DNA from: a virus
Length of the DNA stretch: 58,995 bases
Direction: 5' to 3' (one strand)
Virus record (IMG/VR): IMGVR_UViG_3300025536_000017
Location: 1 to 58,995 of that record
The notes beneath the pieces are model-generated. The model saw only the letters and a program-made list of their open reading frames with translations. It was not told where the DNA came from and searched no databases. Below are positions 2,640 to 23,975 of the stretch, one piece after another. The first letter of the stretch is position 1, and each line of letters starts with the position of its first letter. Made by a program: the position numbers and the translations under genes.

Positions 2640-3027
2640 CCTCGATCTCCCGCTGGAACCTTGCGTGTTCTTCCTGCTGCGATTTAAGCGCGATCTCCGC
2701 CAGCTCGGCCTCGCGGCGCGCTTTGGCGATCTCGTCATTGCGCCGTGCGTGCTCGATAAGCCCCAGGCGCACGCGCTCATTCTCGGCTACCGCCCATGCC
2801 TCGCGATCGATCGCCGCGCGATGAGAGTAGCCCCAATCAAAGCAGCCAAGGGCAACGGCGGCGACAAGCAGCAATTTCGCCGTCTGCGCGCCGACGGCCG
2901 GCAGATAGGCCCACGCAGCAACAGCAGCGACTAGCAACAAAACGGCGATCGATCCGTAGCGATGATCGCCGATGAAATGAAACAGCGGCAGGAGCGGCGC
3001 AAAAATCTTGGTGAGAAGCCAGATCAT
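2545..3027 (-). CDS. Inner-membrane spanin (Rz-like)
   Basis: A 160-residue protein with two hydrophobic segments near the N-terminus (about 25-45 and 51-64), followed by a long charged coiled coil (about 70-135, rich in E, R, K, A and Q). This is the architecture of an i-spanin. Classical Rz has a single N-terminal helix, so the second helix is a variation. It starts four bases inside the endolysin end (ATGA-type overlap) and overlaps the lipoprotein gene at its 3' end, as Rz/Rz1 pairs do. Role: spans the periplasm with Rz1 in the last step of lysis. Confidence 0.7.
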   Translation of the reverse strand: MIWLLTKIFAPLLPLFHFIGDHRYGSIAVLLLVAAVAAWAYLPAVGAQTAKLLLVAAVALGCFDWGYSHRAAIDREAWAVAENERVRLGLIEHARRNDEIAKARREAELAEIALKSQQEEHARFQREIEDASKANDHSPCIDAAGVMRLDKIGARRKKAK

Positions 3028-3905
3028 TGCGCTTCCTCAAAGGCACCGCCAGCATCGTCTTCGAAGATCGCAAGCGCCTCATTCGTATCTTCTACCTTAG
3101 CGCGCGTGATGCGCCTCGCGCCGTCCCATGCGCGCCAGATGAAGTAGGCGCAGGCGCACACGAGAATCGCGATCACGATCCATTCCCAATGCGTCGTCAG
3201 CGTCGCCCACATGTCGGGAGCGGCCTGCGCCGCGTCGTGAATGTTCTTGGCCTGCTCTGCCGCGTCGCTCACCCTGGAAATGACATCGGACGGATCAACG
3301 CCTTTGTCGATAGCCGCCGTAACACCTACGCCAACGCCAGTTGTAATACCGCCAATGACACCTTTTTTGACATCGTCCGCCCCCGCCATCGTGTTCGAGC
3401 CGGCATTGCGAATGTCCTTTGCGGTCAGTTTATCTGGCGCGCCAGCCTCGCGCTTGCGCTCCGCGATCTGCGCATAGGTGGCTTGGATGAATTGCTGTTG
3501 CTCGCTACGTCGCCGTCCGATGATCGCTGGCGGCTTCTTGTAAAGCATAATCGCCCGTGCAGCGCCGGCGTAGTCGCGCTTATTTAGACACTTAACGATC
3601 GTTGATTTCGGCGACAATGCAACTTCGACATTGAAGCAAATCGACACGAGCGCATCAAATTGGCCCTGAGTCAGAGGCACACGCACATTGCGATTAACGA
3701 TGTTTTCATAGCGCACGAGATCGCGCGTGAAAATTTCTATCGCCTCTGCGCGCGTAATAGTCATGCCGGCGACAGGATGCGGTAGACCGGCGTTCTTGGT
3801 GTGACCAACGCCAATAGTCCACACGCCGACAGAATCCTTATAGGCCGTCGTTTTAAGGCCCTCGCGCTGGATTAGCTTCGCGCGGCCGTCAGCGCTCATT
3901 TTCAT
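3024..3905 (-). CDS. Endolysin, GH24 (T4-type) lysozyme with C-terminal membrane anchor
   Basis: Residues 1-150 form a glycoside hydrolase family 24 domain with the catalytic triad visible: E15, D24 and T30 in the E-x8-D-x5-T spacing, then IGVGHT and LTQGQFDALVSICFN. It cuts the MurNAc-GlcNAc bond of peptidoglycan. Unusually, the protein continues to 293 residues. A linker with a Gly/Val-rich, weakly hydrophobic stretch (about 182-200) leads to a strong transmembrane helix (WIVIAILVCACAYFIW, about 241-256) and an acidic tail. So the enzyme may be tethered to the membrane by its C-terminus. It starts four bases inside the preceding small gene (ATGA). Confidence 0.85.
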   Translation of the reverse strand: MKMSADGRAKLIQREGLKTTAYKDSVGVWTIGVGHTKNAGLPHPVAGMTITRAEAIEIFTRDLVRYENIVNRNVRVPLTQGQFDALVSICFNVEVALSPKSTIVKCLNKRDYAGAARAIMLYKKPPAIIGRRRSEQQQFIQATYAQIAERKREAGAPDKLTAKDIRNAGSNTMAGADDVKKGVIGGITTGVGVGVTAAIDKGVDPSDVISRVSDAAEQAKNIHDAAQAAPDMWATLTTHWEWIVIAILVCACAYFIWRAWDGARRITRAKVEDTNEALAIFEDDAGGAFEEAQ

Positions 3906-4177: not shown

Positions 4178-7100
4178 TCAGTAAATCGTGCCGGATGTTG
4201 TTTCCTTGATAAGCGGCGCGAGTTTTGGGTTGAGATCGACGCCAAATTCCATGCGCCTACTGCGCGCATTTCTAGCCTTTACAGACTGAGTAATCGTCTT
4301 CCCGGTAATTCTGAATGACGGATATTTTTCATTGAAGGCGTCAACCTTACGACGCGCTGCGTCATCATCGCCTTGTCCCATGCGCGCTCTCGCCGCAGCA
4401 GCGAGAGCTTGTGAGCGCTCATTGGTGATGCGGCGCTGCTTGTTTCGCTGAGAATTGTTGCGGTCCATGCGCTCTTTGATCTGCGCTGGGCCTAACCCCA
4501 TAGCTTGCTTTATAATGTCTTCGATTGGAACATACTCGACGATCGGATTGCCGTCCTTGTCGGTTACGCCTTGCGCAGCATAGCGATATGCCTTCAGGAG
4601 ATTGCGGATGAATGCTGGAGCGACTCTTTCTCCAAGCCGCACGTCCTTTCCTTCGGCATAATCATTCGCGGCAACAAAACCTTGATGTAAGATACCAACT
4701 CCTGGGCCGCCGAGTTGGTCAATCAAATACATCCATTTCTGGTCTGGATTCATGTCGCGATCAACGCTTCGGAACCACATATCCGCCATGCCGATTCGAT
4801 CCGAAAGCGCCGTCCCTGTCACGTATCCCGGAACGCCATCAAGCAGCATTCCCGCAACCGCTAGAGAAAGCATGTTGTCGCCGGCCGCGTCTACGATCGC
4901 CTTGCGCAGCTTTTCATCAAGATCATCGTCATCTCCACCCGCAAGACCATAAAGGAAGCTCGCAATCGCCATAACCGTTGAATATGCGAACATTCCCCTA
5001 ACGCCAGCCATAGGTAGCGACATTAGAACCATCGTCGTGAAGCGACCTAGCGCCATCTTTCTTTCTTCTGGCGTCGCTCCTTTGATCGATTGATTAAAGT
5101 CCCAAAATGCACGGAAAAGCACATTCGCCTGATAGCTCTTTAGCGCAAATGCAACGCGAGCAAGATTACCGCGCATAAATCGTGGTTTGGCGCTTGATTG
5201 CGTTTCGTAATGCGTTGCAAACGTCAGATCGGACGCTTTCACGAAAGCATTTGCGTCATTCATTCCGGCCTTCTTGGCAAGGCGGAATGCCGCAAGGAAT
5301 GTCACTTCTCGGTTGAAGCGCTCCGTGTGGTGCATTGGAAGGCCAGCGACCTTCATTACAGATTGCCACATTGGGCTGTAGCCAACGCCGCTTTCTGCAA
5401 TCGCGGCAAGTTCGTGCGCCTGCGTTCTATCGATGACGCCGCTATCATATCCCTTGGCGATAGCATCGCGCTCAGCATCGGTAAGATTCGACGAGTCTGA
5501 AATCCTTCCCTTACCGCGCATGAAGTCGGCGGTCGCCTTAGCGAGTTCGCTAGCGGCGTTTTTGATGCCGGCATTGGTTTCCAGATCAAATGCGAGAATG
5601 CCAAGTCCCTTGCTGATGGTCTGATCGATGTTGACCAAGGCGCTAGATAAATTGAAAGCCATCGTCCAAAGGAACGACATACTCGATGCGTTATATGACC
5701 AAGCCTTGCCGTCAGGATTCATTGCATATTCGTGCGCAAAGTTCATTTCATTGTGCAGAGCTGCGGCGCGCTTCTTATCTGGCGCATCCTTAGCCTCTCT
5801 GGCAATATTTTCCATGTGCTCAGTTAGGTCGAGTCCATATTTGAGTCTGGCCATCTGATGGCCAGCATGAAACATCTGCTTGGCGAACGCGCGCATCGCA
5901 TCCTTGTTGAATCCGGCTGTTCCCTTACGATGAATGCTATGCTTACGGATCGACAAGTCAGGGAGCGTTCGCAGATAGCTCTGCCAGATTTGATCGCGGA
6001 CGCCATCGCCGATATTGTTGTCGGTAAGGATGTCGTCCAGCCCAACGATAAAGTTGGGGTCAATCTGGTCCTTCCATTCCTTGTCGTTGAGATCGTGGCC
6101 CTCGCTAACGTCAAGATTCGGGTCGGCGCTCATTTCCTTTGCAAATTTGCTAGACTCCGACGACCTCTCGAACTTAGAGAACGACACGATAGCTTTCGAC
6201 GCCTTGTCGCGCACAATGACGTAATAGCTACCAAAGCGAGCGAGCGGGAAATATGGCTCCTGAATCTTGTTGCTCTCGAATTGCTGGCGAAGGCGACGAA
6301 GACGTGCGCCTTTAGTGCGATTAGCTCGTCCGCGAACGCTACTGAGCTTCTTATCGGCAGCATCTATCGCTCTTTCGCGCTCATCACCCTCAAGTCCGTC
6401 GTCATTAATTCTCTGCATTTCATCAGCATGTGCGCGCTCAGCCCTCGTAATTGCAGCCTGCATCGCGCGGGCAACATTGTCGATCACAAGCTCCTGAGCC
6501 TCGTCATACATTTTCTTGTAGTAGTCACGCACCTCTCGATAAAGCTCCTGCGCAATCTGCGGCATGGCGTCGTAACGCTTCTTTAGATCACCATAGGCTG
6601 CGCGCCGCGTTTGGTCTCGCGCTTGGCGCTCGGCCGCAATCTGATATTGCCTCGATGACGGGTCAGCATCAGCAAGCGCTTCATGATCTCCCGGCGTCAT
6701 GATCTGCTTAAATGGCATGCTAGGATCAACGCCTACAAGCGTCGTTTCGTGCATCATGTCCATAAGATTTTTGTTCGCATCGCGGTTTGCGCGACGCGGC
6801 GTTGCGCCTTGAATCTTGACCTTGTTTGCCCATTTGAACCACTTCTGCAAAATGGCGTCTGTCGATATCGCCATATCATTGCGCATCGTATCCATAAGGC
6901 CCTTGGTCGCAAGATACCTACGCGCAGATGGCAACCCCTTCGCCATTTCGAGAAACAGCGGTCGAACAGGAACGAAAGCCAAAATACTGCGCGACGGCTC
7001 GGCAAACTTCGATCCGGTCATGAAGTCTGTGATGTGATCCGACATCCAATTTCGTGCGCTCTCAACATGTCCCTTCGCGTCATTGGCGAGCGAGAAGCGG

Positions 7101-10100
7101 TAGCCGCCAGAGCCGCCATCGGTCGGCGGGGATGGCATATTAGCGTCGCGGAGCGCCGCAAGCGCGAGCGCGCGGACCTCGCCAGGAGTGACCGCGCCGA
7201 ACTGCCGCCCGAAGAAGCGCAGCGCCCATGCCTTCACAGCGCCAAGGATGTTGTCGACGATCTCCCGAATGCCCGCAGGAGCCTGCTCACGGTTCTCAAT
7301 GGCGTAGGCGGCCACTTCCTCCGCCGACGGCGCTCCCGCCTCTCCAGCCCGCCTTAGAGCCTCCGCCCACCATCCAGACTTGTCGCCCCTGTCGATCGCG
7401 GCCTCGGTCGCGCCCTGGATGCGGCCAAGCAGCGCCTCAAACTGACGAGAGCCAATCAGCGGCTCGACCGCAGAGTGAAATGCCTCGTGAAGCAGAACGG
7501 CGCGAGCGTTCGCTGGCGTCAAATTGGCGGCAACAAGATGAATGACACCATCTGGCGTCGTTACACCCTGAATCCGCATGCCATCTGGTGCCGATGGCGC
7601 TCCGGCTGGAATTGTGCTCGCGTCGTCGTGAATCACGACGCGGCCGGAGCTTATTGCGCTATCAATAATGTCGCTGTCTTTACCGACAGACATGCGCTTT
7701 TTCAGCGCCGCTGCCGTCATTCCGAGATTGCCAGAACCCATGGACGCCTTTGGCGCGTCCTGCTCGATGACGCCGCGAGCGGCACTTTGCTCTTTCGTCG
7801 TCTCGAAAATAGCGTCCACAGACATGAGCGCTTCGACGAGACGTTGCGCAAGCGCTCTGTCGTCAATCCTCGCGACCATCATTCCTTGGCGTTTTTCCCA
7901 TGAATCATAAACCGCGCGAACACGGTGATCGGCGTAATATTTGCCGCCAGTCCTCTTTGATCCCATGGCCGTGAAGATGTAGCCATGATAGCTCTTGTTT
8001 ACAGAAACTATACCATCAGATGATTTGAGCGATGGTTGATGCGCTACATCAAGAAACTTCATGACTTGCGATCCGGTTTTGAACCTAACCGACATTTTTG
8101 CCATAAAGTCTTTCGGAGCGAACTTGCGACCCATGAGGATAGCCGGCCGAACGCTTCCATCCTCCATAGAGTGGTTGATAATCTGGCCGCCGCCCTTCAC
8201 CTGATCGAACGCCGCAAGAATGTTGCCTGTGAACATATAGCGAGTCTCGCGACCCTCGGCGCGCGCCTTCTCGAATTGTTCGGCGATCTGCTCCTGCGTA
8301 ATGCGCATGCCGCCGGAATTTCTCTGCACAAGAGAAGCGCCAGCCTTTGCTGTTGTATCGTTCTCTGTCTTCAACCACGTAAACGACTGCTGAACCGTGC
8401 GGCGACTATCTGGAAGCGCAAACACAGCCGCCCATTTTGAAAGAGCAATGGGGCTACCAGACTTTCCGCCAACATCCCTGACATCCAAAACAATCGCCGG
8501 AGTCATCTCACCGTCATCAAGTTCGATATGAACGATTTGGCCTGGAGAAAGAATGTCGACAAGCGAGCGCCAACGGCGCATGTTGTTTTCAAATTCCTCC
8601 CTGTGGCGCTGCTTCGCGCCATCATCCTTAAGAAGGCTCCAAACCGTATTGTTGTATGCCCTAGCGCTCTCTGTGATTTTTTCAATTCTCTCGCTTGTCT
8701 CTTTTCGAGCCTCATCGGCCATATCAGATAGATTGTCGCTGGTCACGCGCGCAGCCGGCGACCATTTCTTAATCTGCTCGACGATATCGCCAATCGTCAT
8801 GGCGCGACCTTGCGACTTGACCGATACCTTTTCGAGATTCACGGCGCTCTCAAATGGCGACAGACCTGTTCCGGGCTTCGTCACCTGAGATTCAAGCGTG
8901 CGCGCCTGTAGATCGACGTATTTTGCCTCAAGATCGTTCTTGCCTTCGGCGTCAAGTTTTTCAATGAGCGCCTTATAGCGACCAACGATATTGTCAATGA
9001 ACTCTTGCTGCTCCGCTGGCTCAAGAAGTGTCAGACGACCCGTGACCTTGGCGGCATATCCATGCGGAATTTCATCGCCTGGAATTTCGACATTCAAAAG
9101 GTCAGCGATATCGGCGCTCTCGTTCAAAACATCGGCAACAACATCATCGCCATACTTATTCATGAAGTCCACGGCGTCGGCCGAGAACTTGCTTTTCGCT
9201 GAGCCTGTCGTGTTGGCGTTAAGCGACGCCATTTTGCGCATTAGAACTGCGGTAGGACGCACGGTCGCAGGAATATCGGCGACAAGTTGCGAATAATTTG
9301 GCGTGACTACCTGTCCGGTGCGATGCACGCGGCCGAGCATCTGCATGTGCGTGTCGATATTTGGGTCCGCCTCGACAAGAATCATGCGACGACGGCGCTT
9401 GTCCTTCACCTTCGGGTCTTTCGAGGCGTGCATTGATACGCCGGTAGAGCCAGACCTGTTCAAGATAAGCACGTCAAGTTCGCCATTATTGAACTTGCGA
9501 ATGCTCACCTTCTTGCCGGCCGGTCCGCGCTCGGTCTTCGGGCGCTGCGAAAGCGTTGCTGACTTTTGCGAGTAATCAAGCATGATGTCACGGCCAGTGA
9601 CCTCAGCTACCGAGTATCCTGCCTTTTGTATTTCGTTGCGAATTGCGTCGATTGGCGAAATCGGAAGATCGCCAAGGTTTAATTGATTCAGGAAGCTCAT
9701 AGCCTCATTGTATTTGGCGACAGTCTCCGGGTCCATTTGATTGAAGTCGATCATAATTCGATGCTTCGTTTCCTTATCGATCTTCACGGTAATGCGGCGA
9801 GTCCGCTCCAGATACCGCTTGAGCATATCGACAAAGGAAAGATCGACAATATCGCCGACCTTCAAACCTTCCGAATCCACAAAGTCAGAAAGAAACGCCT
9901 CGTTAGTTTTTGACAGCGCAATAACCGGGCGCTCGCCGGCTTTGATGGCTGCAATAGCGCGCTTTCCGGCCTCTTGCGACGTAATCGACAAAATCATCTG
10001 CCCAATGATGTTGTGCATGACTGATGAAAATGTCGTAGAAGAAGCCCCGCCTTCACCTACGCTTCCGTCTCTCTGACTACCGGCTCCCATCTCTGCGGCG

Positions 10101-13100
10101 ATATCATCAGCAATTTCTGATCGCTCTTTCGCAAAAGCTCGATCAAAGTCAAAAACCGCGCGTAGCCCTTTGGTGAAATTACCGTAAGCAGCCTCGTCAA
10201 CTGCAACCGGCTCCATATCGTAGTTGACGCCTTCGAAGGACCGCTCGCGGCGCAAATACTGGCCTGCGGCTGCAAGCATGTTCGACACGACTTGCTGTAG
10301 AGGAATGCCGCCGCGCTGAATAAGCTCCGGCAACTGCGACGGCTTATCAACGGCCTTGGCGATATCAGTTCGCGAAAACAACGTCATGACGCGCGGCGAC
10401 TTGGCGTATGTGGCCGATGAATAGACGACTGCGCGCACCTTATCTGCCTGCCCAGGCAGACCGATTACCTCACGGAACAGCTCAGAGCGCGGCGGAGCCT
10501 TGTCCTTTTCCTCGAACATCGGCTCGCTTTCGCCAGCCGCTCCGCCTGCATTATGCGTCTCGTCCATAATGAGGAACGCTTTTGGCGCAATGCGACGAAG
10601 GAAATTGCGACGCGGCGTCTCCTGTCCTTTAACGCTATTCATCTGATCGTATGTCGTGAAAACAACATCCGGCTCAGAATCGCCATTGACGATTGCATTA
10701 AGGTTTGCGGTAGCCTTCTCTAAATTCTGCGCCTTAGAGAACGCACCATATCTTTCTGGAGGCTTTTCACCAATCTCGTTCGCTGCGTCGCGCTCCGCAA
10801 CCCACGTCACAGCGTCATCATCAAGCGGAACACTAACGCCAGAATTGGTCATCGCCATATTGATCGGGCGACCAAGCTGCTTGTCCCAACCAATATCATG
10901 AAGATCGCGCCACATATCGCCGTAAAGATCGGGCTTTTCGGTCACAAAGACAGGGATTGCGCCGTTCTTTTTGGCGTAGGTGATAAAGGCGGCAACGCAG
11001 TTGTGCGTCACAATGAAATCATCGGTAACGTAAAGATGAGCAGGATCGTCAACCGTAACACATTGACATTCCTCACGCCCGACAAATTTGATGCTCTTGA
11101 TGTAACGAGTAGGTGGATATTTGGCCCACTCTTTAACTCGCCCAGACTTACGGGAAAGCCTGAACGGCGAAACTCCTGATGGCATTCTTATAAATACGAC
11201 ATGGCAATCCTTATGAGTGGTTTTCTTAATCGACCTAGTTGCGGTCCCCCCAAGCGACCTAACTATAAACACAACATCGTCAGCCAGCGACGATGAAACA
11301 GAATAATAAACACTAGCTCCACTCTTATTAATGGTCCCGTCGGTATCCATTAGACCCTGGAGAACAGCCAATCGCACATTTGTAGAATTCCACTTATAAA
11401 TCTCTGGCACAAACTTGTTATCTGCTACAACTCCAGCCAAGCCAATTGAGCGCATTTTGGCAGGAATCGCATCAGGTTGATTCCTGCGGCCAGTTCTAAC
11501 TTCGCGAACTATATTTCTATGCGTATCTCGACCAGATTTACGCAACACAAATCCTACAGGAATTGCCGCCTCAACAAGATCGGCCATTTCTTGTTCGGCT
11601 ACAACTATCTGCGTGTCTCCATTCTTCCTGATATGTCCATCTCCGAGGCACGCTCCAACAAGGTATGGATCAAGAGGAGTATCGCGATGTGGAATCGAAA
11701 TAGGACTAACAAGCGGAACAGAATAAATGCGCGTGATGTTTTTTGCTATTTCACTCGTCGTCAGAATCTTATAGTCAGCATAAATGCTCCACGGAGTATG
11801 TTTTGCTGCATATCTTGAATTGCGTGTGCGAGTAGCCCACAGATGATCTGCCGACGCTCTTGTTTTGCTACCGTCGCTAAATTCAATCTCAAATACGTCA
11901 ATTACGCCTTGCGGATGCAGATGCGTAACTTTAGTTGGGCGACCATTGAGAGCAATAACTTCATCTCCTATCCTAATATCCCCCATCAGAGTCCATCCGT
12001 TCGGAGTTAAAAGTTTAGCACTTAACGGCTGACTCCTTCCTTTCCCAATACCAGTTTGATCGCCAATGATAAATCCGTCGCCCTTCTCAATATTCCAGAT
12101 ACCCATTGCGATAGCGTCGATCTGCTCACCAGAAAAATATTTACCTAGTTCTTCCGGCTTACGATCAAGCGCCCGCGCAACATATTCGTCTATGTCTCCG
12201 ACCTCTTGCTGAATGCGCCCAAACGCACTGTAAATCGCATCCTTCAAATTGGCTGGAACAAGCGTATTCAACGAATCGCCTTCGCGAGACGCCGGCTCGT
12301 AGGATGACTGTCCGTCCTGATTGCGTTCTACAGTCCGCTTTCCATTGGAATCAGCGCGAGTATCAGCTCGCTTACGCTGTCCGCTCTCCACGGTTGGCTT
12401 TCGTGGTTCAGCGCCCACGGAAGGCCCTCCTGTAGCAGATTCGCGTTGTCCGCTATCAGGCTTTGCGCCCACATCTTTGGGTTGCTGCGGCTTGGCTTCG
12501 ACATTGGGCCGAGACTCGCTTGTTCCAGTTGATCCTCTGCCCACATCATCGTTTGTTGCGGGTTTGGATCGCGCTGAAGTAGCGTTTCCAGTCGGAGCGC
12601 CACCTTCTGTAGAAGCTGCTTGTGTGACGCCATTTAGTTTATCTCCTATTTCACTCCACGACTGAAGCAGCGTCGGCGGCGTTTTAGTTAGCGGATCACG
12701 CTTGCCCCATGGCTCGCCAGATGTATTCTTTCCATCGATAACCACAACGTCAACCGGCCACTGAGCGCCCTGTTTTGCATACAGCTTGCCGTCAACGGTA
12801 AACACGTCTGTCACATTATATTGTGTGAACAGCTTGTGATAGAAAGACCTCTTTGCGGGAGCGGTATATCCCTTGGCGCGCTCTTTCGGGTCCATGCCCT
12901 TGACGCCGCCGAGAATAAGCACGGCGCGGCCATCTGGAGCCATCGCCTTCAGCGCATTCAGCGCAATGGCATGGTCAATTTGATCTGTGCGGTAGCCGTC
13001 AATCTTCCACGACTTCTTTCTGCCGCCATCGGTCACCGTTCCAAATGGCGGATTGGCGATGACGGCCGCCATCTTTCCGACTTGCTGCTTGAACATCTCC

Positions 13101-16100
13101 GGCTTTGTGGCGTCATCCATAATCGGCGAGAAACCAAGATCGTCGAGCGCCTTGGCGCGCGTCGGATTGATCTCGGCAACTGTAGCGTTGTCTGGTTCAA
13201 CGTCAATCAGTAGCATGCCGTTGCCGGCTGACGGCTCCAGAACATCAGCTCTCGGCTCAATACCGGCGAGGCGCGAGGCGACATAGGCAAGCGGGGCAGG
13301 GGTAGAATAGGCTTGCTCAGAAATGCTTGCCGACGTGCGCGCAGACAGGTTTGGCTGCTTATTGTAGAGCCGAACAAGCTGCTCAAATGTCGCTACTGAC
13401 GACTCGCCAGCCTCACGATTGATTGCAACGATGTTACGGGCGCTTTGCACGACGGCGCGCTCGACAAGCTCATCGACAAATTTATTGAACGGGACACCTT
13501 CGGGCGCTTTAGCACCTACCTCATCAGCGAGCTTTCGCGCCTCCATAATATTGCGGAATGCCTTTTGATCACTATCGCCTTCAAGCATGCCGCGCACATG
13601 CGCGATGAATGCGGAGTCGCCTTTGGTTGAGTCTGGCGCTTGCGTGGTGTTGTTTGGCTCCGCAGCGGGCTTCTCATTCTTCGAAAGATTATTGGCGATA
13701 AGGTCTTCGATGATCGCCACATTCACTTCGTGCTGCTTAAGTGTTTGCCGCAATCCAATTAAGGCAATAGAAGCCTCACCAAGCCGCCTATCCTTAACTT
13801 GTGGGTCGTAACCAAGCTCCAGCGTCTTCTCGATGCGCTTCTTCATGCGCTCGACGGCCTCCTTAGCTTTCGGAAGCTGCGATTCGTATTCCTCCCGATA
13901 GCGGCGCTTGTTCAACTCACCGAGCGCGTTGCGCGAACCATCGATGTAATGATCATCAAACCGCTCGATTTTCTCCGAAGCCTCGGCCGGCTTCTTATCT
14001 TCCGTCGCCTTCGTGCCAGACTCACTCGCCGCAACCTCATCGGCCGTCTTGTATTCAGGATGCAAGTCGCGGTTTGTCGAAATTCCCATGCCGCCGCGAG
14101 ATGGAACCATTCCGACCGGCTCTGTTTTTACAATGCCGTCTTCCTTGATACTGCGGACGCCGCGAGAGTCTTCCCAAAGGTCTTTGCCTTCGGCGTTCTG
14201 CCCGACAAGTTTACGACCCTTGGCGTCACTTACACCGCCATCCGATTCATCGGCAGGCTTTGAATCAGGAACAGCTTTTGCGCCATCGGAACTAGCCTCT
14301 GAGGAACCGTCGCGTTCTCCAACAGAAGTGCCTCGAACGCTTCCCTGTCCACCTGCGGCGTCTCCGGCTCCAGGCGATACAGCTCCAGCAGCGCTTCCCA
14401 CCCCGTCATTAGAAACAGATGGTCTGCTGGCAGATACATCGGGTTGTTGCTCGACATTATCGCCACCCTTCGGAACGATCTGAAATTTGCGGTCTTTTGT
14501 ATTTTTGACTTCATGGGTTTCAGCAAGCCATGTGTTCTGCCTCATGTAGGAGTTTGCAGCCGCCGCAGCTCCCCAAAAATTGTTTTTGATATGAGCTAGA
14601 ACTTGCTTGCGCTTCTCGTCGCTCGGCTGATTGACGTTTTCTGTCGCCGCAGTCGGAGCCTCTTGCTTTGTTGGCTTCTGCGGCGCACTTGGCGCGGGCG
14701 CTTGCGTGGCATTAGCTGGAGCCTTGTTGATGGCCGCGAAAAGATTGTCTCTTTCTTCCTTGCGCAGATACGGCCACGGAGTATTAACGCGCTCGGGATC
14801 AACGCCGGCTTCCTTGGCGTATCCAATCTTGTCTGCGATCGTCAGATCATTCCAGAATTTGGTTGTTTCGCTGATTTTAGGTGTCGCTGTCTGCGCTTCT
14901 TCTTTCGTATCAGCGCTATAGATTCCTCCTACATTCAACTTACCCGGCTTAGCGTCGCGCGCTTGCGCCTTGATAGCGTCTCGGACCTTCGCGCCATGCG
15001 CGCGCACCTGATCCTCGCTCATGCCGGTAGCATCAGAAACAAACTTCACATAATCAGAGTCGCGCTTCGATGGCGTCTTTTGCGCAGCGATATATGCTGC
15101 CTTGTCGATATCGTTATCGAACGAAAGATCGAACTGCTTTGCGCCGAACGAATAGCGCGGCTTCGCGCCAGCAAGGTCTGCGCCAAGTGATTTAGGTTTC
15201 TCCGTTGACTTTTGAACCTTTGGTTCTTCCGCCTTTGTGGCATTGGCAAACTCAGGATCACCATTCGCAAATCGACGAAGATCATCCGGTGACTTAATTC
15301 TTCCAGTGTCGAAAAGCGGCTTAGCCGCCTTCAAAACCGGGTCATCAACGCCCGCGAACTTCGTCTTTCCATCCGAAAGCGCCTTAAAGAGACCGTCGTA
15401 GAGATTGCCGGTAATAGCTTTGCCAATTTCGCCACCAGCCCCAGACAAGCCGGTAGCTGACGGTTCCTTGACACCGCGCCTCGCAAGCTCATCATCGATA
15501 CGCGCGATCTGTTGCCAAATCTTCGGAGCGATGTTCTCGGAAGCGCGGCGCGCTTGCGCAACAAGATCGGCGCGACGCTTGACAAGCAAGTCGTCTTCCT
15601 GATCTTCGAGCGCCGGCGGTCCGGGCTTCGGCTTCCGCGTGACCGTCTGTTGCGCCGCCTCAGAAAGCGATTCAGCCTGCGCAGGAGCGCCCGTTCTCGG
15701 CTGTGGCGCTTCAACACCACCCTGTTGAGCGTCCTGCGCAGTCGGCTCGACCGCCCCCATAGCTGCCGGCGAAGGTTCCTCGGATTGGGGAGGGGCTGCT
15801 ACGGGAGCGGTCGATTGCGTCGGCGCATCGAGAAGCTCGACCGCGCCAGATGTGACATCTTGATTGGTGATGAGCATTTCCTGCCCATCATCCGTTTTGA
15901 ACACGAAGTCGTCGGCGGTTTGCTCGACAACAGTTCCTTCAACCTCACCATCATCGTCTCGAACGACAATGCGCTTGCCGCCCAACTCAGCGAGAGAACC
16001 GCCGGCCGGCGATCCAGCGCGCAGCGCGCCTGTCAGACCGCCGCCCTGCGGCGTCGGAGGCGTCTCTGGACCACGCGGAGGAGGCTGCGGAGCTGGCGGA

Positions 16101-17743
16101 GCGCCGGTGTCATCAAGCGTCGTGACGCTACCATGAATATCGCCGTCGGCTGGCTGCACTACATCAGACGCAGGCGGCGCGCCTGCGTCTTCAGCCTGCG
16201 GAGGCATTCCAGCGGGCGCGGCGCTGCCGGCGGTATCGACGCGGTAATCAGGCGGAGCCTCCAACATGGGCTTCTGTGCGGCCTTGGCGTCAGCGACGAA
16301 TTGATCGATCTTAGCGGTCGATGACGGCCCCTGACGCTGCATCGCGCCGCCGGCGGCGGCCGGCGCGCCGCCGCCCATAGCGCCAGCAATGAAGTCGCCG
16401 AAAGTCTGCTCGGCAACGTCAGTCTGCGCGCCGGTCGCCTGATTCAGGCCAGCGCGCTGCGTGACGCCTTCGGCCGCTTCCTGTGTTCCTTCTTCAAGTG
16501 CGCCGAGCGATCCACGACCAAGCACGCGACCGGGTAGGCCGCTGCGCTCCAAAATGCCGCTCGCAGGAGATACGAGCTTCGAAGTGGCCGCGCCACCAAG
16601 CGCAGACACAGGCAGCGTGAACAGAAACGCCATACGACCAGCGGCGCTCTTTGTGATCCGCAACGCCTGATCTGGCGTCTTTCCTTCCTTGATGGCCTCT
16701 TTATAGATAGGGAGCTGCTCGCGCTCTTGCGGCGACATGGCGTCAATCGTCTTGCGCGCATCGTCTGCGGCAGCACCGCCACCCTGCAATCCACCAATTG
16801 CAGCGCCAGCGATCGCCGACCCGCGCGAAGCAACGCCGCCAGCGACAACAGGAAGCATCTGCCCGAAGATATCGAGACCGAGATACGCATAACCGCGCAG
16901 CGACGGATTCTTGCCGAGCGTCCATGTGCCCGGCTTCAAAATATTCCCGCCAGGAGACGAATCAGCAATTGCCTGCTTTGTTTCAGGTGAGACACCTTCT
17001 TGAACGCCGGCTCCCCATTTATTGAAAGCCTCGGCGAGCGCATCGCCCATAGAGCGATATTCAGGAATGCCGGCGGCATGTCTTACTGCTTGCGAGACCT
17101 CGGCAGCGCCCTGAATCGTTGCGCCGGCACCCTTTGCTGCGCCGCCAACGACTTGCAGACCTACATCACCAATTTCGCTATTTTGCTGCGCTGCTTGCGG
17201 CGCATCCTGAGATGGCGCTACCGACGGATCGACAGGATAATATTGATCCGCCAAGCGCTTCGAGCGCGACAAAATATCCTGCAAATATTCGTCGGTCTGC
17301 GGTCCCCACTGACCCCTATCCGGCCCGCCGACATACGCCTTAATGGCGTCGTCAACAGATAGCCCTTGATCCATGTAGTTCTTGATCTTTTTAGCGGCGC
17401 TATCAATGGCTTGCGATGGAATGTAGGGGTTGATGCCGTCGCGCGCAACGTCGTCATCAGACATTGCGATGATGCCACGGCGACGCGATCCGACGCCTTG
17501 CGATCTCGCAAGAGGATTGAAGTTCGAATCCTTCTCGGCCATGCCGAGAAGGACATCGACCGGCACGCCGTATTTGTCGGCCGCACCCTCGAACATCGAG
17601 AGTCGCTTAGCGTCCGCTGATGGCTGCGATGGCGGCGCGACTGATGGCGATTCTGGCCTTCCGCTATTGGCAAACTCGATCGCCGCATTCAGGCGATCTT
17701 GAGCGTTTAATTTCGCGTATTCGCCTAAATCAGGGCCAGCCAT
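4178..17743 (-). CDS. Giant polyvalent virion protein: degenerate lysozyme, methyltransferase, DarB/Strawberry-notch helicase (intein), zincin, PLxRFG
   Basis: One uninterrupted 4521-residue frame. Domains in order: residues ~50-165 lysozyme/transglycosylase-like (DSNFNP at 72-77, AYVGGP at 136-141); ~190-470 Ala/Gly-rich hydrophobic segments; Pro-rich linkers; ~1480-1700 N6-adenine-type methyltransferase fold (LEPSAGNG at 1502-1509, NPPF near 1564); ~1830-2850 SF2 helicase of Strawberry-notch/DarB type (Walker A ending GIGKGR at 1903, DETH near 2394, GRVHRTGQ near 2800) split by an intein at 1904-2248; HEAFH zincin motif at 3419-3423; PLxRFG motif near 3830; hydrophobic segments ~4230-4320. 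Phage P1 DarB, with methyltransferase and helicase domains, is injected and shields DNA from type I restriction. PLxRFG giants belong to the polyvalent proteins of phages and conjugative elements. Neighbouring internal virion genes suggest packaging and ejection with the genome. After splicing the product would have 4176 residues. Confidence 0.85.
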   Translation of the reverse strand: MAGPDLGEYAKLNAQDRLNAAIEFANSGRPESPSVAPPSQPSADAKRLSMFEGAADKYGVPVDVLLGMAEKDSNFNPLARSQGVGSRRRGIIAMSDDDVARDGINPYIPSQAIDSAAKKIKNYMDQGLSVDDAIKAYVGGPDRGQWGPQTDEYLQDILSRSKRLADQYYPVDPSVAPSQDAPQAAQQNSEIGDVGLQVVGGAAKGAGATIQGAAEVSQAVRHAAGIPEYRSMGDALAEAFNKWGAGVQEGVSPETKQAIADSSPGGNILKPGTWTLGKNPSLRGYAYLGLDIFGQMLPVVAGGVASRGSAIAGAAIGGLQGGGAAADDARKTIDAMSPQEREQLPIYKEAIKEGKTPDQALRITKSAAGRMAFLFTLPVSALGGAATSKLVSPASGILERSGLPGRVLGRGSLGALEEGTQEAAEGVTQRAGLNQATGAQTDVAEQTFGDFIAGAMGGGAPAAAGGAMQRQGPSSTAKIDQFVADAKAAQKPMLEAPPDYRVDTAGSAAPAGMPPQAEDAGAPPASDVVQPADGDIHGSVTTLDDTGAPPAPQPPPRGPETPPTPQGGGLTGALRAGSPAGGSLAELGGKRIVVRDDDGEVEGTVVEQTADDFVFKTDDGQEMLITNQDVTSGAVELLDAPTQSTAPVAAPPQSEEPSPAAMGAVEPTAQDAQQGGVEAPQPRTGAPAQAESLSEAAQQTVTRKPKPGPPALEDQEDDLLVKRRADLVAQARRASENIAPKIWQQIARIDDELARRGVKEPSATGLSGAGGEIGKAITGNLYDGLFKALSDGKTKFAGVDDPVLKAAKPLFDTGRIKSPDDLRRFANGDPEFANATKAEEPKVQKSTEKPKSLGADLAGAKPRYSFGAKQFDLSFDNDIDKAAYIAAQKTPSKRDSDYVKFVSDATGMSEDQVRAHGAKVRDAIKAQARDAKPGKLNVGGIYSADTKEEAQTATPKISETTKFWNDLTIADKIGYAKEAGVDPERVNTPWPYLRKEERDNLFAAINKAPANATQAPAPSAPQKPTKQEAPTAATENVNQPSDEKRKQVLAHIKNNFWGAAAAANSYMRQNTWLAETHEVKNTKDRKFQIVPKGGDNVEQQPDVSASRPSVSNDGVGSAAGAVSPGAGDAAGGQGSVRGTSVGERDGSSEASSDGAKAVPDSKPADESDGGVSDAKGRKLVGQNAEGKDLWEDSRGVRSIKEDGIVKTEPVGMVPSRGGMGISTNRDLHPEYKTADEVAASESGTKATEDKKPAEASEKIERFDDHYIDGSRNALGELNKRRYREEYESQLPKAKEAVERMKKRIEKTLELGYDPQVKDRRLGEASIALIGLRQTLKQHEVNVAIIEDLIANNLSKNEKPAAEPNNTTQAPDSTKGDSAFIAHVRGMLEGDSDQKAFRNIMEARKLADEVGAKAPEGVPFNKFVDELVERAVVQSARNIVAINREAGESSVATFEQLVRLYNKQPNLSARTSASISEQAYSTPAPLAYVASRLAGIEPRADVLEPSAGNGMLLIDVEPDNATVAEINPTRAKALDDLGFSPIMDDATKPEMFKQQVGKMAAVIANPPFGTVTDGGRKKSWKIDGYRTDQIDHAIALNALKAMAPDGRAVLILGGVKGMDPKERAKGYTAPAKRSFYHKLFTQYNVTDVFTVDGKLYAKQGAQWPVDVVVIDGKNTSGEPWGKRDPLTKTPPTLLQSWSEIGDKLNGVTQAASTEGGAPTGNATSARSKPATNDDVGRGSTGTSESRPNVEAKPQQPKDVGAKPDSGQRESATGGPSVGAEPRKPTVESGQRKRADTRADSNGKRTVERNQDGQSSYEPASREGDSLNTLVPANLKDAIYSAFGRIQQEVGDIDEYVARALDRKPEELGKYFSGEQIDAIAMGIWNIEKGDGFIIGDQTGIGKGRSQPLSAKLLTPNGWTLMGDIRIGDEVIALNGRPTKVTHLHPQGVIDVFEIEFSDGSKTRASADHLWATRTRNSRYAAKHTPWSIYADYKILTTSEIAKNITRIYSVPLVSPISIPHRDTPLDPYLVGACLGDGHIRKNGDTQIVVAEQEMADLVEAAIPVGFVLRKSGRDTHRNIVREVRTGRRNQPDAIPAKMRSIGLAGVVADNKFVPEIYKWNSTNVRLAVLQGLMDTDGTINKSGASVYYSVSSSLADDVVFIVRSLGGTATRSIKKTTHKDCHVVFIRMPSGVSPFRLSRKSGRVKEWAKYPPTRYIKSIKFVGREECQCVTVDDPAHLYVTDDFIVTHNCVAAFITYAKKNGAIPVFVTEKPDLYGDMWRDLHDIGWDKQLGRPINMAMTNSGVSVPLDDDAVTWVAERDAANEIGEKPPERYGAFSKAQNLEKATANLNAIVNGDSEPDVVFTTYDQMNSVKGQETPRRNFLRRIAPKAFLIMDETHNAGGAAGESEPMFEEKDKAPPRSELFREVIGLPGQADKVRAVVYSSATYAKSPRVMTLFSRTDIAKAVDKPSQLPELIQRGGIPLQQVVSNMLAAAGQYLRRERSFEGVNYDMEPVAVDEAAYGNFTKGLRAVFDFDRAFAKERSEIADDIAAEMGAGSQRDGSVGEGGASSTTFSSVMHNIIGQMILSITSQEAGKRAIAAIKAGERPVIALSKTNEAFLSDFVDSEGLKVGDIVDLSFVDMLKRYLERTRRITVKIDKETKHRIMIDFNQMDPETVAKYNEAMSFLNQLNLGDLPISPIDAIRNEIQKAGYSVAEVTGRDIMLDYSQKSATLSQRPKTERGPAGKKVSIRKFNNGELDVLILNRSGSTGVSMHASKDPKVKDKRRRRMILVEADPNIDTHMQMLGRVHRTGQVVTPNYSQLVADIPATVRPTAVLMRKMASLNANTTGSAKSKFSADAVDFMNKYGDDVVADVLNESADIADLLNVEIPGDEIPHGYAAKVTGRLTLLEPAEQQEFIDNIVGRYKALIEKLDAEGKNDLEAKYVDLQARTLESQVTKPGTGLSPFESAVNLEKVSVKSQGRAMTIGDIVEQIKKWSPAARVTSDNLSDMADEARKETSERIEKITESARAYNNTVWSLLKDDGAKQRHREEFENNMRRWRSLVDILSPGQIVHIELDDGEMTPAIVLDVRDVGGKSGSPIALSKWAAVFALPDSRRTVQQSFTWLKTENDTTAKAGASLVQRNSGGMRITQEQIAEQFEKARAEGRETRYMFTGNILAAFDQVKGGGQIINHSMEDGSVRPAILMGRKFAPKDFMAKMSVRFKTGSQVMKFLDVAHQPSLKSSDGIVSVNKSYHGYIFTAMGSKRTGGKYYADHRVRAVYDSWEKRQGMMVARIDDRALAQRLVEALMSVDAIFETTKEQSAARGVIEQDAPKASMGSGNLGMTAAALKKRMSVGKDSDIIDSAISSGRVVIHDDASTIPAGAPSAPDGMRIQGVTTPDGVIHLVAANLTPANARAVLLHEAFHSAVEPLIGSRQFEALLGRIQGATEAAIDRGDKSGWWAEALRRAGEAGAPSAEEVAAYAIENREQAPAGIREIVDNILGAVKAWALRFFGRQFGAVTPGEVRALALAALRDANMPSPPTDGGSGGYRFSLANDAKGHVESARNWMSDHITDFMTGSKFAEPSRSILAFVPVRPLFLEMAKGLPSARRYLATKGLMDTMRNDMAISTDAILQKWFKWANKVKIQGATPRRANRDANKNLMDMMHETTLVGVDPSMPFKQIMTPGDHEALADADPSSRQYQIAAERQARDQTRRAAYGDLKKRYDAMPQIAQELYREVRDYYKKMYDEAQELVIDNVARAMQAAITRAERAHADEMQRINDDGLEGDERERAIDAADKKLSSVRGRANRTKGARLRRLRQQFESNKIQEPYFPLARFGSYYVIVRDKASKAIVSFSKFERSSESSKFAKEMSADPNLDVSEGHDLNDKEWKDQIDPNFIVGLDDILTDNNIGDGVRDQIWQSYLRTLPDLSIRKHSIHRKGTAGFNKDAMRAFAKQMFHAGHQMARLKYGLDLTEHMENIAREAKDAPDKKRAAALHNEMNFAHEYAMNPDGKAWSYNASSMSFLWTMAFNLSSALVNIDQTISKGLGILAFDLETNAGIKNAASELAKATADFMRGKGRISDSSNLTDAERDAIAKGYDSGVIDRTQAHELAAIAESGVGYSPMWQSVMKVAGLPMHHTERFNREVTFLAAFRLAKKAGMNDANAFVKASDLTFATHYETQSSAKPRFMRGNLARVAFALKSYQANVLFRAFWDFNQSIKGATPEERKMALGRFTTMVLMSLPMAGVRGMFAYSTVMAIASFLYGLAGGDDDDLDEKLRKAIVDAAGDNMLSLAVAGMLLDGVPGYVTGTALSDRIGMADMWFRSVDRDMNPDQKWMYLIDQLGGPGVGILHQGFVAANDYAEGKDVRLGERVAPAFIRNLLKAYRYAAQGVTDKDGNPIVEYVPIEDIIKQAMGLGPAQIKERMDRNNSQRNKQRRITNERSQALAAAARARMGQGDDDAARRKVDAFNEKYPSFRITGKTITQSVKARNARSRRMEFGVDLNPKLAPLIKETTSGTIY
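11000..12034 (-). mobile_element. Intein with LAGLIDADG endonuclease in the polyvalent helicase P-loop
   Basis: 345 codons inserted between GDQTGIGKGR and VAAFITYA. The first residue is Ser (SQPLSAKLLTPNGW, block A), followed by GDEVIALNG and a DGS..DHLW block B region. Endonuclease motifs YLVGACLGDG and LAVLQGLMDTDG mark a two-motif DOD homing endonuclease. The end is LYVTDDFIVTHN, then Cys as the +1 residue. All residues needed for splicing (S1, penultimate H, terminal N, C+1) are present. Splicing would restore GKGR-C in the Walker A region. Base composition is visibly more AT-rich than the flanking helicase, which suggests separate acquisition. Confidence 0.92.
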
Positions 17744-19168: not shown

Positions 19169-19921
19169 TCACAGCCCCCTTGGAATCGGAAACCTCGAAC
19201 TCATGAAGTCCATGATGCCATCAGACCGCATGCCATTCTGTGGGCGCGTCACAACACGCTCGATCGACGGCAGGAATCCGGTGCGCTTTGCGATAGCTTG
19301 CCGCGCGTCCTTTGGCTTTTCGAATTGCTCAACGAATCCGGCCGTCGCCTCTGATCCGTCTTTATATTTGGTCCCGAGATACTTCTGCGTTTCGCGTTCA
19401 CCAAGCGCATAATCAATCTGGCCCTTCCAGTTCGTTTTCCAATCTGGAACGGCTTTCTCCATTGCCGACAGTCGGCCCTTGTGATGCTGGAACAGCCCGC
19501 CAGATGGTGCGCCAAGATCGTTTGGATTATATGCAGCGGGATTGAATCCGCTTTCGCCTTGCATGTTCGTAATCATGCCAAGCGCGTGCTCGTGACTAAC
19601 GCCCCTTGAAACGATGTAGTCATACATCTCTTTCGCTGCGTTCGGATTCGACACGGCACGCGACGTAATTGCTGGCCCTGGCGTTGTCGGCGCGATGACT
19701 CCGCGTGGCGTCATCGGCGTTGCTGATGCTTGAGTCGTTGCAGAAGGAATAGCCGCCGGCGTCGTCGGTCCTGGCGTAGCCACCGGAGTCGTCGCAGGGT
19801 TGGAGATAGAACGCCCACTCAAGAGCTTGTCTATCTCGGCCTGCCTGTCGATCTGACGCGCGGCGCTGTAACCACCGAACGCGCCTTCCATGAAGGCTCC
19901 AATTCCACCGCCGGTGCTCAC
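19169..19921 (-). CDS. Virion-associated peptidoglycan hydrolase (phage tail lysozyme type)
   Basis: 250 residues from GTG 19921. Residues 1-20 are Gly/Ala-rich, 40-85 a Pro/Thr/Ala linker. Residues ~95-180 match the phage tail lysozyme family: AKEMYDYIVSRGVSHEHALGMI, then GESGFNP with the likely catalytic E123, and GGLFQHHKGR. It would open the peptidoglycan during DNA entry. The start overlaps the upstream HNH gene by four bases (GTGA). Its Gly-rich N-terminus resembles that of the neighbouring internal protein, consistent with both residing in the virion. Confidence 0.75.
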   Translation of the reverse strand: MSTGGGIGAFMEGAFGGYSAARQIDRQAEIDKLLSGRSISNPATTPVATPGPTTPAAIPSATTQASATPMTPRGVIAPTTPGPAITSRAVSNPNAAKEMYDYIVSRGVSHEHALGMITNMQGESGFNPAAYNPNDLGAPSGGLFQHHKGRLSAMEKAVPDWKTNWKGQIDYALGERETQKYLGTKYKDGSEATAGFVEQFEKPKDARQAIAKRTGFLPSIERVVTRPQNGMRSDGIMDFMSSRFPIPRGL

Positions 19922-20469
19922 GCCGCAACCCCATCAAAACGAGCGAACTCTCCATAAAATTCAATTGCCGCCTTCTTGTATGCTAATGCGGCCTCGGCCT
20001 TGGTAATGAAATATCCCAAGTGCCTGTAAGAGCCATCTACCTGGATTCTTGCGTGCCACTTTTTTGTTTGGCGAAACCAGTAAACGCCTTTGATTCCAGA
20101 AGTGTTGTTGCGCTGCGCCATCCTATTTGCACCGTTTTGAGAATGGGATGCCTCGCGTAAGTTAATCCAACGATTGTCTGATCCATCTAAGTTGTAATGG
20201 TCAACTATTCGATTTGGCCACTCACCAATCATGTATATCCATGCAATACGCTGCGCTAAATAATAGCGATAATCTATGCAAATATGGATATAACCATCAT
20301 TTCTCAATGATCCAGCACAACGCCCGCAAAATCGCGCATTCCAAGCCTTACATGCTCGATCACTCTTAAAATGCTCGCAAGGGCGGAGCTTCCATATGAA
20401 CGCGCCTGTCTCAACATTATAGTCAAGACATTCGCGAACATAGGCCGCTGTCAATTCTATTCTGCTCAT
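19918..20469 (-). CDS. Free-standing HNH homing endonuclease with AP2 domain
   Basis: 183 residues. Residues ~70-110 form an HNH_3-like nuclease (AQRIAWIYMIGEWPNRIVDH, then LDGSDNRWINLREA). Residues ~122-178 form an AP2 DNA-binding domain (TSGIKGVYWFRQTKKWHARI, then YRHLGYF and AALAYKKAA). The first catalytic His expected in the HR motif is Gln73 here, so activity is uncertain. It sits between two internal virion genes, is AT-richer than both, and ends in a four-base overlap with the lysozyme start. Such genes insert next to conserved genes and cut intron- or gene-less alleles. Confidence 0.8.
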   Translation of the reverse strand: MSRIELTAAYVRECLDYNVETGAFIWKLRPCEHFKSDRACKAWNARFCGRCAGSLRNDGYIHICIDYRYYLAQRIAWIYMIGEWPNRIVDHYNLDGSDNRWINLREASHSQNGANRMAQRNNTSGIKGVYWFRQTKKWHARIQVDGSYRHLGYFITKAEAALAYKKAAIEFYGEFARFDGVAA

Positions 20470-21699: not shown

Positions 21700-21951
21700 C
21701 TACAGCGCCGAGAGGATAGCCACGAGCACGCGCCTGAGAGCCGCCACGTCAGCCACCAAAGCATCGTGCTCCGCCGCTGTTGGGTTGGCTCCAGCCGCAT
21801 TCGCCGCCGTGATTTCTGGAACTAAAATCCGCCTGATCGCATCGAAGTCAGACCGCAAGAGCGCCCGGCGCGCGCCGTTCGCGCGCTCCCCGGTCAGCCT
21901 TTCCAGCTTCTCAATGGCAAGGCCAATTCTACGCTCTGCTGCGGTCGTCAC
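21700..21951 (-). CDS. Small Ala-rich helical protein between nozzle and internal protein
   Basis: 83 residues, almost wholly alpha-helical by composition (Ala, Arg, Leu, Glu) with heptad-like spacing. The start overlaps the nozzle-like gene end as ATGA. It is followed by about 60 non-coding bases containing the dispersed palindrome. No family recognised; in such positions a small assembly or chaperone protein is usual. Confidence 0.55.
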   Translation of the reverse strand: MTTAAERRIGLAIEKLERLTGERANGARRALLRSDFDAIRRILVPEITAANAAGANPTAAEHDALVADVAALRRVLVAILSAL

Positions 21952-23975
21952 TTGATCTCACCCTGCATAAGTTCGCTCGGCGACATGGCCAGATAAATTG
22001 CGTCGATCTGCCTTTGTCCCTCGATCTGTATTTCCCATTTGCGCGCCAAGAATCCAGACGGCAAGCGAGCAACTTGATTGAAGTCTGTCAATGTTCGTTT
22101 CAGCGCACTGTCTGAATAGACCTTGCACTGAAATGGCGTAACGGAACCAGGAGACGACGCTTCGCTACCAACTACCGTAGATGAGAATGCGGCGTTAACG
22201 AGCGTTGCATCCTCGACCATAACAAACGGCGGCGAAGAACTATCCAGTCCATCATCAAGAACCTCGCCATCAACCCGGATAGCGCCGTAATTTGAATCTG
22301 CTGGCAACATGAACGGTTTAGATTTCCATGTCATGGACATGAATTGCTGGCGATCGGAATCCCATTCCTGCGCCATATGGTCATCGTTAAGCACGTATAG
22401 CTTACCAGCTCCAATCTCAAAGAACATGAAATCATATTTCAAATCAGTTCGACTTAAAAATGGCTGCTCGCCGGTAAGGTCGATAATAAGCGTTCCTTCT
22501 TGGGTTTCACCAGACGTATCCTCGTATGAATACGAAGCAATATATCGTCCATCGTATTGCGCAGAAACCCACGTCTCCGGCGACATTTCGCGCCACTGGT
22601 CGATCGTCCAAAGATTACGCGAGACCATTTGCGCGCCACCTGAGCCTATCACGGCAAGGCCATTTGGCGACGGATACGCAACCGAATAGCCAAGATCAAC
22701 AATCCCATACTTATTGATGCACGGTAGGTTGAACTCCAAGCGCTCAAGCGTCATCGAGTCAGGAGATATTCCTGTGCAAACATATGGCTGACCTTCGGTC
22801 ATGATGGCGATTGATGAGCCGAATGCGCCAAGGCCGACGATATCAAAATCGACAGTCTGGACATACTTCTCGGGCCAAGCATGAGGAATCCACGGCTCGG
22901 TAAGATATAGCTTCTTGCCGACAAACCCGGCCAGCATGCCATTGGGTAGCGCGATGATGCCGCTTAGATCGTCCGGCGGCGGATTATAATCAGTCGATGG
23001 AATCACCTCCTGAATTGGGTTGTCTGCTAGGACATCCTCCCAACTCGGCGTCGGAACCGGTAGCGCCTGTTCGTTGATTAAGAAAAGCTCGGTAACCCCA
23101 AGCGCGCTTGTTTGTGAGCGATAAATACGAATGCGATTGTAGTTGCGATCTGTCGGCGGATCGACGAAATTGCTCAACGTAATATTTAGTGTTGGATCGG
23201 TAAGAACTTCATCGCTAACCGGGGACGGCTCAGATTCCTCGTCATATGCAGTTACATAAGTGTAGACATATATGACTGAATATTGTGTTTGCGGATTTGG
23301 TTCTTCGCCAATGGATAGTTTGAACGTCCCGCCGGTAGGCGTGCCACTGATGGTTAAATCCTGCTCGTCATTGGCGGAGATTGTTCCTGGCGTCGTGTGG
23401 GCAACTGAAACATCAGGACTCGTCCCGCCAGTGAGCGCGTTCGCGCCTTTGGTGAGCTTGGCGACATATCGCAGTGCGAGATCGTTCGTAAATTCGATGT
23501 TGATCGGCGTGCCTGGCAGCGGCCCGCCAGTGCAGACGACATTGCCGGAACCGATGCTAGATAGCGATTCAAGCGCTGTTTGAACTTCTCCAGCGGTGGC
23601 GTCGAAATCAAGATTCCCAGTCGTCTGTATCGCTGTCGCTACAAGTTGGTCGACAGGCGCGGCGACTTTAAGCGGATAAACCGTTGAAGTGTCCACTACG
23701 ATCTTGGGAACGCCGTCGCCGGTCATATAAAGGCGATCCTCGGCGATAGGGGCCGGAACTACATCGACAACTACGTTCCATTCAAGCCATGTCGCGCCAC
23801 GCTTGTAAAACATCACATCGCCATCGGCGAGAGCGCGATAGTCATTCGGATAGCGCAATGGAATAATTGAGCCATCTTGCAGCTTGCAATTGCTCGCGAT
23901 CTGCGCGGCCCCATTAGGAAGCAGGCGCGGCGTTATTTTCGGAATTTCTCCAGCAAAGCCCATAAGTGATATCAT
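21948..23975 (-). CDS. Tail nozzle / tubular-B-like structural protein
   Basis: 675 residues, beta-rich. The middle and C-terminal region has features of podovirus nozzle-type proteins: IALPNGMLAGFVGKKLYLTE, PHAWPEKYVQTVDFDIVGLG, YPSPNGLAVIGSGG and YDGRYIASY. This suggests a propeller-like core at the tail tip that DNA passes through. Residues ~122-205 contain a separate module found in many phage proteins (VQTALESLSSIGSGNV, TGGPLPGTPI, LTGGTSP), seemingly inserted. GAGGA stands six bases upstream of ATG 23975. Confidence 0.65.
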   Translation of the reverse strand: MISLMGFAGEIPKITPRLLPNGAAQIASNCKLQDGSIIPLRYPNDYRALADGDVMFYKRGATWLEWNVVVDVVPAPIAEDRLYMTGDGVPKIVVDTSTVYPLKVAAPVDQLVATAIQTTGNLDFDATAGEVQTALESLSSIGSGNVVCTGGPLPGTPINIEFTNDLALRYVAKLTKGANALTGGTSPDVSVAHTTPGTISANDEQDLTISGTPTGGTFKLSIGEEPNPQTQYSVIYVYTYVTAYDEESEPSPVSDEVLTDPTLNITLSNFVDPPTDRNYNRIRIYRSQTSALGVTELFLINEQALPVPTPSWEDVLADNPIQEVIPSTDYNPPPDDLSGIIALPNGMLAGFVGKKLYLTEPWIPHAWPEKYVQTVDFDIVGLGAFGSSIAIMTEGQPYVCTGISPDSMTLERLEFNLPCINKYGIVDLGYSVAYPSPNGLAVIGSGGAQMVSRNLWTIDQWREMSPETWVSAQYDGRYIASYSYEDTSGETQEGTLIIDLTGEQPFLSRTDLKYDFMFFEIGAGKLYVLNDDHMAQEWDSDRQQFMSMTWKSKPFMLPADSNYGAIRVDGEVLDDGLDSSSPPFVMVEDATLVNAAFSSTVVGSEASSPGSVTPFQCKVYSDSALKRTLTDFNQVARLPSGFLARKWEIQIEGQRQIDAIYLAMSPSELMQGEIK

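Follow-up and report, generated by a model that had tools for sequence, protein, structure and literature searches.

A predicted class 3 intein within the helicase ATP-binding motif of a giant DarB-like phage protein

We found that a phage gene very probably encodes a giant DarB-like virion protein of the Bcep22-like type, with a mobile class 3 intein that has inserted itself into helicase motif I and splices. The gene lies in a linear virus record of 58,995 bases (the whole stretch of DNA analyzed, hereafter the window), which has no terminal repeats, is known here as a sequence contig and may be incomplete. The initial annotation had described one polyvalent protein with lysozyme-like, methyltransferase, helicase and protease motifs; the main feature, an intein interrupting the helicase ATP-binding motif, was absent from it. 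The broad protein type was already known.

The gene was confirmed as a single uninterrupted open reading frame (ORF) of 4521 codons with an ATG start and a TGA stop (Table 1). Shuffling the bases of the gene 50 times gave stop-free runs of 261 codons at most, which rules out a chance ORF. Because residues 1904-2248 represent the intein, the 4521-residue chain would be a precursor, and the predicted mature protein should comprise 4176 aa (451 kDa). The ORF falls in the 3,700-5,400-residue class and carries an SLT head, an N6-methylase, a conserved HEXXH domain and polyvalent C-terminal domains, which is the size and domain composition of the Bcep22-like proteins. As had been stated in the initial annotation, it is surrounded by internal virion genes; a lysis module is also adjacent, and the phage has a P22-like portal. 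A separate tail-lysozyme-like gene was observed at 19169-19921.

Table 1. Positions in the window of the giant gene, its predicted domains and neighboring genes (residues are those of the precursor)
Feature	Position	Strand	Match
Giant DarB-like polyvalent protein gene, precursor 4521 codons (489 kDa)	4178..17743	-	
SLT transglycosylase-like head, residues 50-146	17306..17596	-	Pfam PF01464 E 2.9e-5
N6-adenine methyltransferase domain, residues 1440-1720, NPPF 1564-1567	12584..13426	-	PHROG DNA methyltransferase matches
Strawberry-notch helicase, N-extein part, motif I GDQTGIGKGR, residues 1850-1903	12035..12196	-	
Class 3 LAGLIDADG intein (predicted), 345 aa, residues 1904-2248	11000..12034	-	
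LAGLIDADG motif 1 (LVGACLGDG)	11636..11662	-	
LAGLIDADG motif 2 (LQGLMDTDG)	11336..11362	-	
Strawberry-notch helicase, C-extein part, motif II DETH, motif VI QMLGRVHRTGQ, residues 2249-2910	9014..10999	-	
HEXXH (HEAFH) domain, putative zinc peptidase, residues 3380-3560	7064..7606	-	phrog_10089
LPD39 large polyvalent protein associated domain, residues 3571-3790	6374..7033	-	Pfam PF18858 E 1e-48
PLxRFG 'tail-700' C-terminal domain, residues 3830-4508	4220..6256	-	NCBIfam NF032893 E 3e-183
Endolysin	3024-3905		
Internal virion protein	21948-23975		
Capsid	29980-31068		
Portal	34446-36776		

The intein region, which starts with SQPLSAKLLTPNGW and ends with DDFIVTHN, gave a LAGLIDADG_3 Pfam match and a TIGR01443 (intein C-terminus) match below the cut-off, and it matched intein-bearing terminase and primase PHROGs as well as, by sequence, solved DnaB inteins. 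Its AlphaFold model (pLDDT 90.8, pTM 0.91) matched PI-SceI (E 2e-18) and the class 3 DnaB inteins 6rix and 6bs8 in the PDB. The key residues are Ser1, W66, C325, T343, H344 and N345, followed by Cys2249 as the +1 residue of the extein. Thus, the block B Trp, block F Cys and block G Thr of class 3 inteins (WCT; Trp67, Cys118 and Thr137 in Msm DnaBi1, PMC6195587) and the His-Asn end are all present. Trp, Cys and Thr occupied the class 3 positions in 81 of 83 homologous inteins, the window intein included, and H64, W66, C325, T343, H344, N345 and the LAGLIDADG acids were among the invariant residues of a 34-row alignment.

Textbook class 3 inteins carry neither Ser1 nor Cys1, whereas residue 1 is Ser here. 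Six of the 83 family members have Ser1, all with the block F Cys, and Ser1 inteins carrying the WCT motif were reportedly described by Tori and Perler in 2011. A residue-1 nucleophile is not required in class 3 inteins (PMC5222942). Cys at +1 was found in just 2 of the 83 members, and one other intein was named in 2016 as the sole known class 3 case with Cys+1 (PMC5222942). Residues 1904-2248 are thus assigned to class 3 by WCT, and a class 1 mechanism using Ser1 may be an alternative. The GC content of the intein was 45.2%, compared with 55.1% in the exteins, and was the lowest among equal-size windows of the gene, while its codon usage was among the most deviant. Both the low GC and the integrity of the endonuclease motifs suggest a selfish element of recent acquisition.

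The insertion lies exactly in helicase motif I (Walker A), as GDQTGIGKGR / 345 aa / CVAAFITYAKK. The corresponding site was empty in all 18 of the first related loci examined (GFIIGDQTG[I/V]GKGR-VVAAM and variants), with zero residues lost or gained. All 134 motif-I sites in loci L003-L186 were uninterrupted; among 45 loci without the strict motif, 43 aligned straight through and two were truncated before the site. Viral-contig sites with a possible intein-start residue after GKGR (34 + 2 pattern matches) were likewise uninterrupted, and in tblastn the helicase match ran unbroken in each of three phage records and in the top 30 plasmid records. In total, the sample exceeded 200 motif-I sites, in which certain contigs were counted repeatedly and the records nearest to the window were left out. 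No second intein at the GKGR site was detected in three pattern scans of viral contigs, in tblastn against phages and plasmids, or in profile scans of viral and genome contigs, each limited to the 80 top loci out of about 320; the site patterns covered A, C, G, S or T directly after GKGR, and with both limits divergent inteins could escape detection. The element therefore combines an intein fold, a two-motif endonuclease of predicted DNA-cutting activity and empty alleles in relatives, as a LAGLIDADG homing intein does.

Nearly all of the 82 homologous inteins are inserted in a P-loop, with Lys before and Thr/Ser after them. L223 and L224 are nearest in identity (about 43%), and L229 has 38%; all three inteins reside in helicases of the SNF2 or SNF2-like type. 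In the environmental phage contigs L223 and L229, an N6-methylase lies within the same open frame as the intein-bearing SNF2-type helicase, indicating that these hosts are DarB-like proteins too, whereas the methylase of L224 lies outside its frame. An origin of the window intein from such SNF2 hosts was considered and not adopted, as the tree leaves its place unresolved; a clade of the window intein with L223, L224 and L229 was neither rejected nor shown by the AU test (p 0.82). Class 3 inteins have been reported in SNF2 and DnaB helicases, with a phage origin proposed (PMC4031507, PMC7664689), and P-loop inteins occur in mycobacteriophage terminases (PMC5050341). In the literature that we found, the usual hosts of phage inteins were terminases, replication helicases, primases and proteins of a similar kind. 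A related intein was also observed in L236 (1409-3616), where it has Ser1 preceded by Arg (GLGR-SQPL...THN-T) and sits in an apparent portal-like protein, not in a P-loop. In RefSeq, intein-bearing terminases or helicases are named 'DarB-like antirestriction' (NC_054727; NC_048709, our L383; NC_070936); this seems to be an annotation error, perhaps arising from intein sequence that they share. These names suggested that PHROG 10089 might hold an intein; the idea was rejected because the intein by itself gives no match to it.

Outside the intein, the protein matched the family phrog_10089 (E 2e-272), and most of the motifs previously noted were recovered. The methyltransferase gave a PHROG DNA methyltransferase match over residues 1474-1569 (E 1.5e-7) that includes NPPF at 1564, the HEAFH motif begins at residue 3419, and the PLxRFG end is among the listed domains. 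Pfam placed the helicase in the Strawberry-notch family (AAA_34 and Helicase_C_4, E 1e-14 and 7e-24), as had been claimed, but the accompanying label 'DarB-type' needs qualifying because the P1 DarB helicase, like that of phage DC1, is of the SNF2 type. The lysozyme-like head stood as an SLT domain; however, it reads KDSNFNP, with Asp72 at the position of the catalytic Glu in ES.FNP (Parlo, QESSFNP; Skulduggery, KESGFNP), and its enzymatic activity is therefore doubtful. Membrane-like ends were not supported, since no 19-residue Kyte-Doolittle window over the giant protein exceeded 1.6. In the HEXXH domain, H40, E41, H44, E96, E97, E104 and a Tyr were invariant in 40 of 40 aligned relatives; the motif with its downstream conserved acidic ligand fits a metal peptidase, and zincin-like peptidases have been proposed to process polyvalent proteins (Iyer and colleagues, PMC5512222). 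Structure prediction by domain, suggested in the initial annotation, yielded PDB matches for the intein but none at E <= 0.001 for the HEXXH model (pLDDT 77), so that fold support for a zincin was not obtained.

By its sequence, the window protein belongs with the giant DarB-like polyvalent proteins found in Bcep22-like podophages. It has SLT, HEXXH, LPD39 and PLxRFG modules in common with those of Parlo and Skulduggery at 34-45% identity, in both of which a helicase was undetected, and HEXXH, LPD39 and PLxRFG modules in common with POI1126. The HEXXH domain is also common to DC1, whose SLT, methylase, SNF2-type helicase and LPD38 are its own. The methylase-helicase core of the window protein instead resembles those of environmental phages and of Bacteroides phage BS-TP4. 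In the latter (L021), a hypothetical protein of ~5,390 residues with a methylase and Strawberry-notch core, without intein, adjoins the portal gene. Another Strawberry-notch helicase (L016, 7945-8216) has ~90 extra residues late in the helicase, at query residue ~566. Among 50 other contigs sharing the HEXXH domain, no Strawberry-notch helicase was found above the Pfam cut-off, and seven gave weak matches. We infer from these comparisons that the core has been exchanged while the head and tail shell was kept; non-orthologous helicase families would thus have been swapped in the core as the outer modules stayed.

A relative, JC1 gp69 (4515 aa), was detected with 51 unique peptides by mass spectrometry of purified virions (PMC9144972), and by analogy the window protein is probably carried in the virion. 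The initial annotation had proposed an ejected machine that crosses the wall and guards the DNA. Ejection and guarding fit the gene neighborhood, the presence of JC1 gp69 in virions and the published polyvalent-protein framework (PMC5512222), while wall crossing is doubtful given Asp72. The idea of a virion-borne, ejected DNA guard is not new, as it has been published for this protein family (PMC10269572, PMC9144972). It is possible, though on balance rather unlikely, that the giant acts in ejection or as a structural component, with enzymatic domains that serve mostly for entry or host takeover and not for antirestriction, the DarB label being given by analogy. The retention of the head and tail modules in Parlo and Skulduggery despite no detectable helicase, the difference in helicase family from P1 DarB, and the lack of detectable DarA-system partner homologues in CSP3 or Lessieviruses (PMC10269572, PMC9144972) would all agree with that. 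Against it, the methylase-helicase dyad is a recurrent polyvalent theme linked to incoming-DNA protection (PMC5512222). An antirestriction assay of any protein with a Strawberry-notch core was not found in the literature. This alternative bears on the host protein and does not conflict with the intein reading.

Because the intein splits motif I, ATP binding would be abnormal and the helicase inactive in the precursor; ATPase function is disrupted by the P-loop intein of RadA, as cited in PMC6195587. We propose that the ATP-binding loop is split in the folded 489-kDa precursor, that intein Cys325 (block F) would attack the Arg1903-Ser1904 bond, and that the N-extein would then be transferred to Cys2249. 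Intein Asn345 would cyclize, and the exteins would be joined into the mature chain with an intact GxGKGR motif. The free 38-kDa LAGLIDADG endonuclease would cut intein-less copies of the site in co-infecting phages, and repair of the cut site would copy the intein in (homing). Splicing most likely precedes packaging, and we place it soon after translation in the producing cell because relatives live without the intein and the element looks recently acquired. The mature protein would then be packaged and ejected with the DNA, and in the new cell the methylase-helicase pair would move along the incoming genome and protect it, as proposed for DarB.

The intein could conversely be a conditional switch or timer: the precursor, lacking ATPase activity, would enter the virion unspliced and undergo splicing only once it had been ejected into the reducing cytoplasm of a new host, so that the helicase is kept off DNA in the producing cell and in the head and the translocase is turned on at entry. 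The splitting of motif I is in line with this, and Msm DnaBi1, a class 3 intein in a P-loop, is under redox control that acts through the block F Cys (PMC6195587). In the window intein, another Cys does stand two positions ahead of the catalytic Cys (C323-Q-C325), but the DnaBi1 partner Cys48 has no evident counterpart among the Cys residues there. Furthermore, the sampled relatives all do without such a switch, and the composition and endonuclease motifs argue for a selfish element, which makes a timer very unlikely. Least likely of all is a loss of splicing, which would leave the chain uncut or broken at the junctions and this phage with an inactive helicase half. SxxH replaces the usual block B Thr, Ser stands at position 1 and splicing itself is predicted; on the other side, a block B Thr is generally missing from class 3 inteins (PMC6195587), motifs II and VI of the helicase have been preserved, and all residues common to the homologous inteins are intact, including W, C, T, His-Asn and Cys at +1.

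An intein in the motor motif of a giant, probably packaged and ejected protein raises the question of when splicing occurs relative to packaging. If splicing comes first, as we favor, the intein would be a selfish element on a large, conserved ATPase target. If it comes afterward, a virion cargo enzyme would be activated at entry by protein splicing, of which we know of no example. The freed endonuclease, whose activity is predicted, should bias co-infections of related phages. Other mobile elements were observed in the window. A second LAGLIDADG intein (349 aa, 53427-54473, within gene 51624-54572 on the minus strand) interrupts a different SF2 helicase at its Walker A motif (LPTG / SGKS) and is 29% identical to the first; it looks like class 1 because it begins with Cys and has neither the Trp nor the block F Cys of class 3. 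A free-standing HNH endonuclease with an AP2-like domain (19918-20469, minus strand), a third homing-type element, lies between virion protein genes.

Compared with known systems, the window protein resembles Bcep22 gp75, JC1 gp69, DC1 gp67, CSP3 orf43, Parlo (3764 aa), Skulduggery and POI1126 in its length class, transglycosylase-like head, methylase, HEAFH/HEMFH domain and PLxRFG-type tail, and in its late-gene place beside internal virion and lysis genes. The Strawberry-notch helicase, the motif I intein and the Asp at the SLT catalytic position are its own. P1 DarB likewise has an N6-methylase followed by an SF2 helicase in one chain, which is virion-associated in DarB, and the two methylases match weakly (24% over 190 aa, pairwise E 0.004). 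However, P1 DarB has 2255 aa, no intein and an SNF2-related helicase (PF00176), in contrast to AAA_34/Helicase_C_4 of the window; similarity between the two helicases was undetected by BLASTP, and in the strict sense the helicase is not that of P1 DarB. The intein hosts of L223 and L229 are alike in having a Walker A insertion in a helicase joined to a methylase, but their helicase is SNF2-type, the site is GLGK-T or GAGK-T, and the intein starts with Ala1. Class 3 P-loop inteins, such as Msm/Mch DnaB intein 1, the Deinococcus Snf2 intein and phage terminase/helicase inteins, share with the window intein WCT, the His-Asn end, the common Hedgehog/intein fold and insertion in an ATP-binding loop. 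The window intein differs from these in its GKGR-C site, two residues past the usual GK-T/S site, in Ser1 and Cys+1, and in the family of its host protein.
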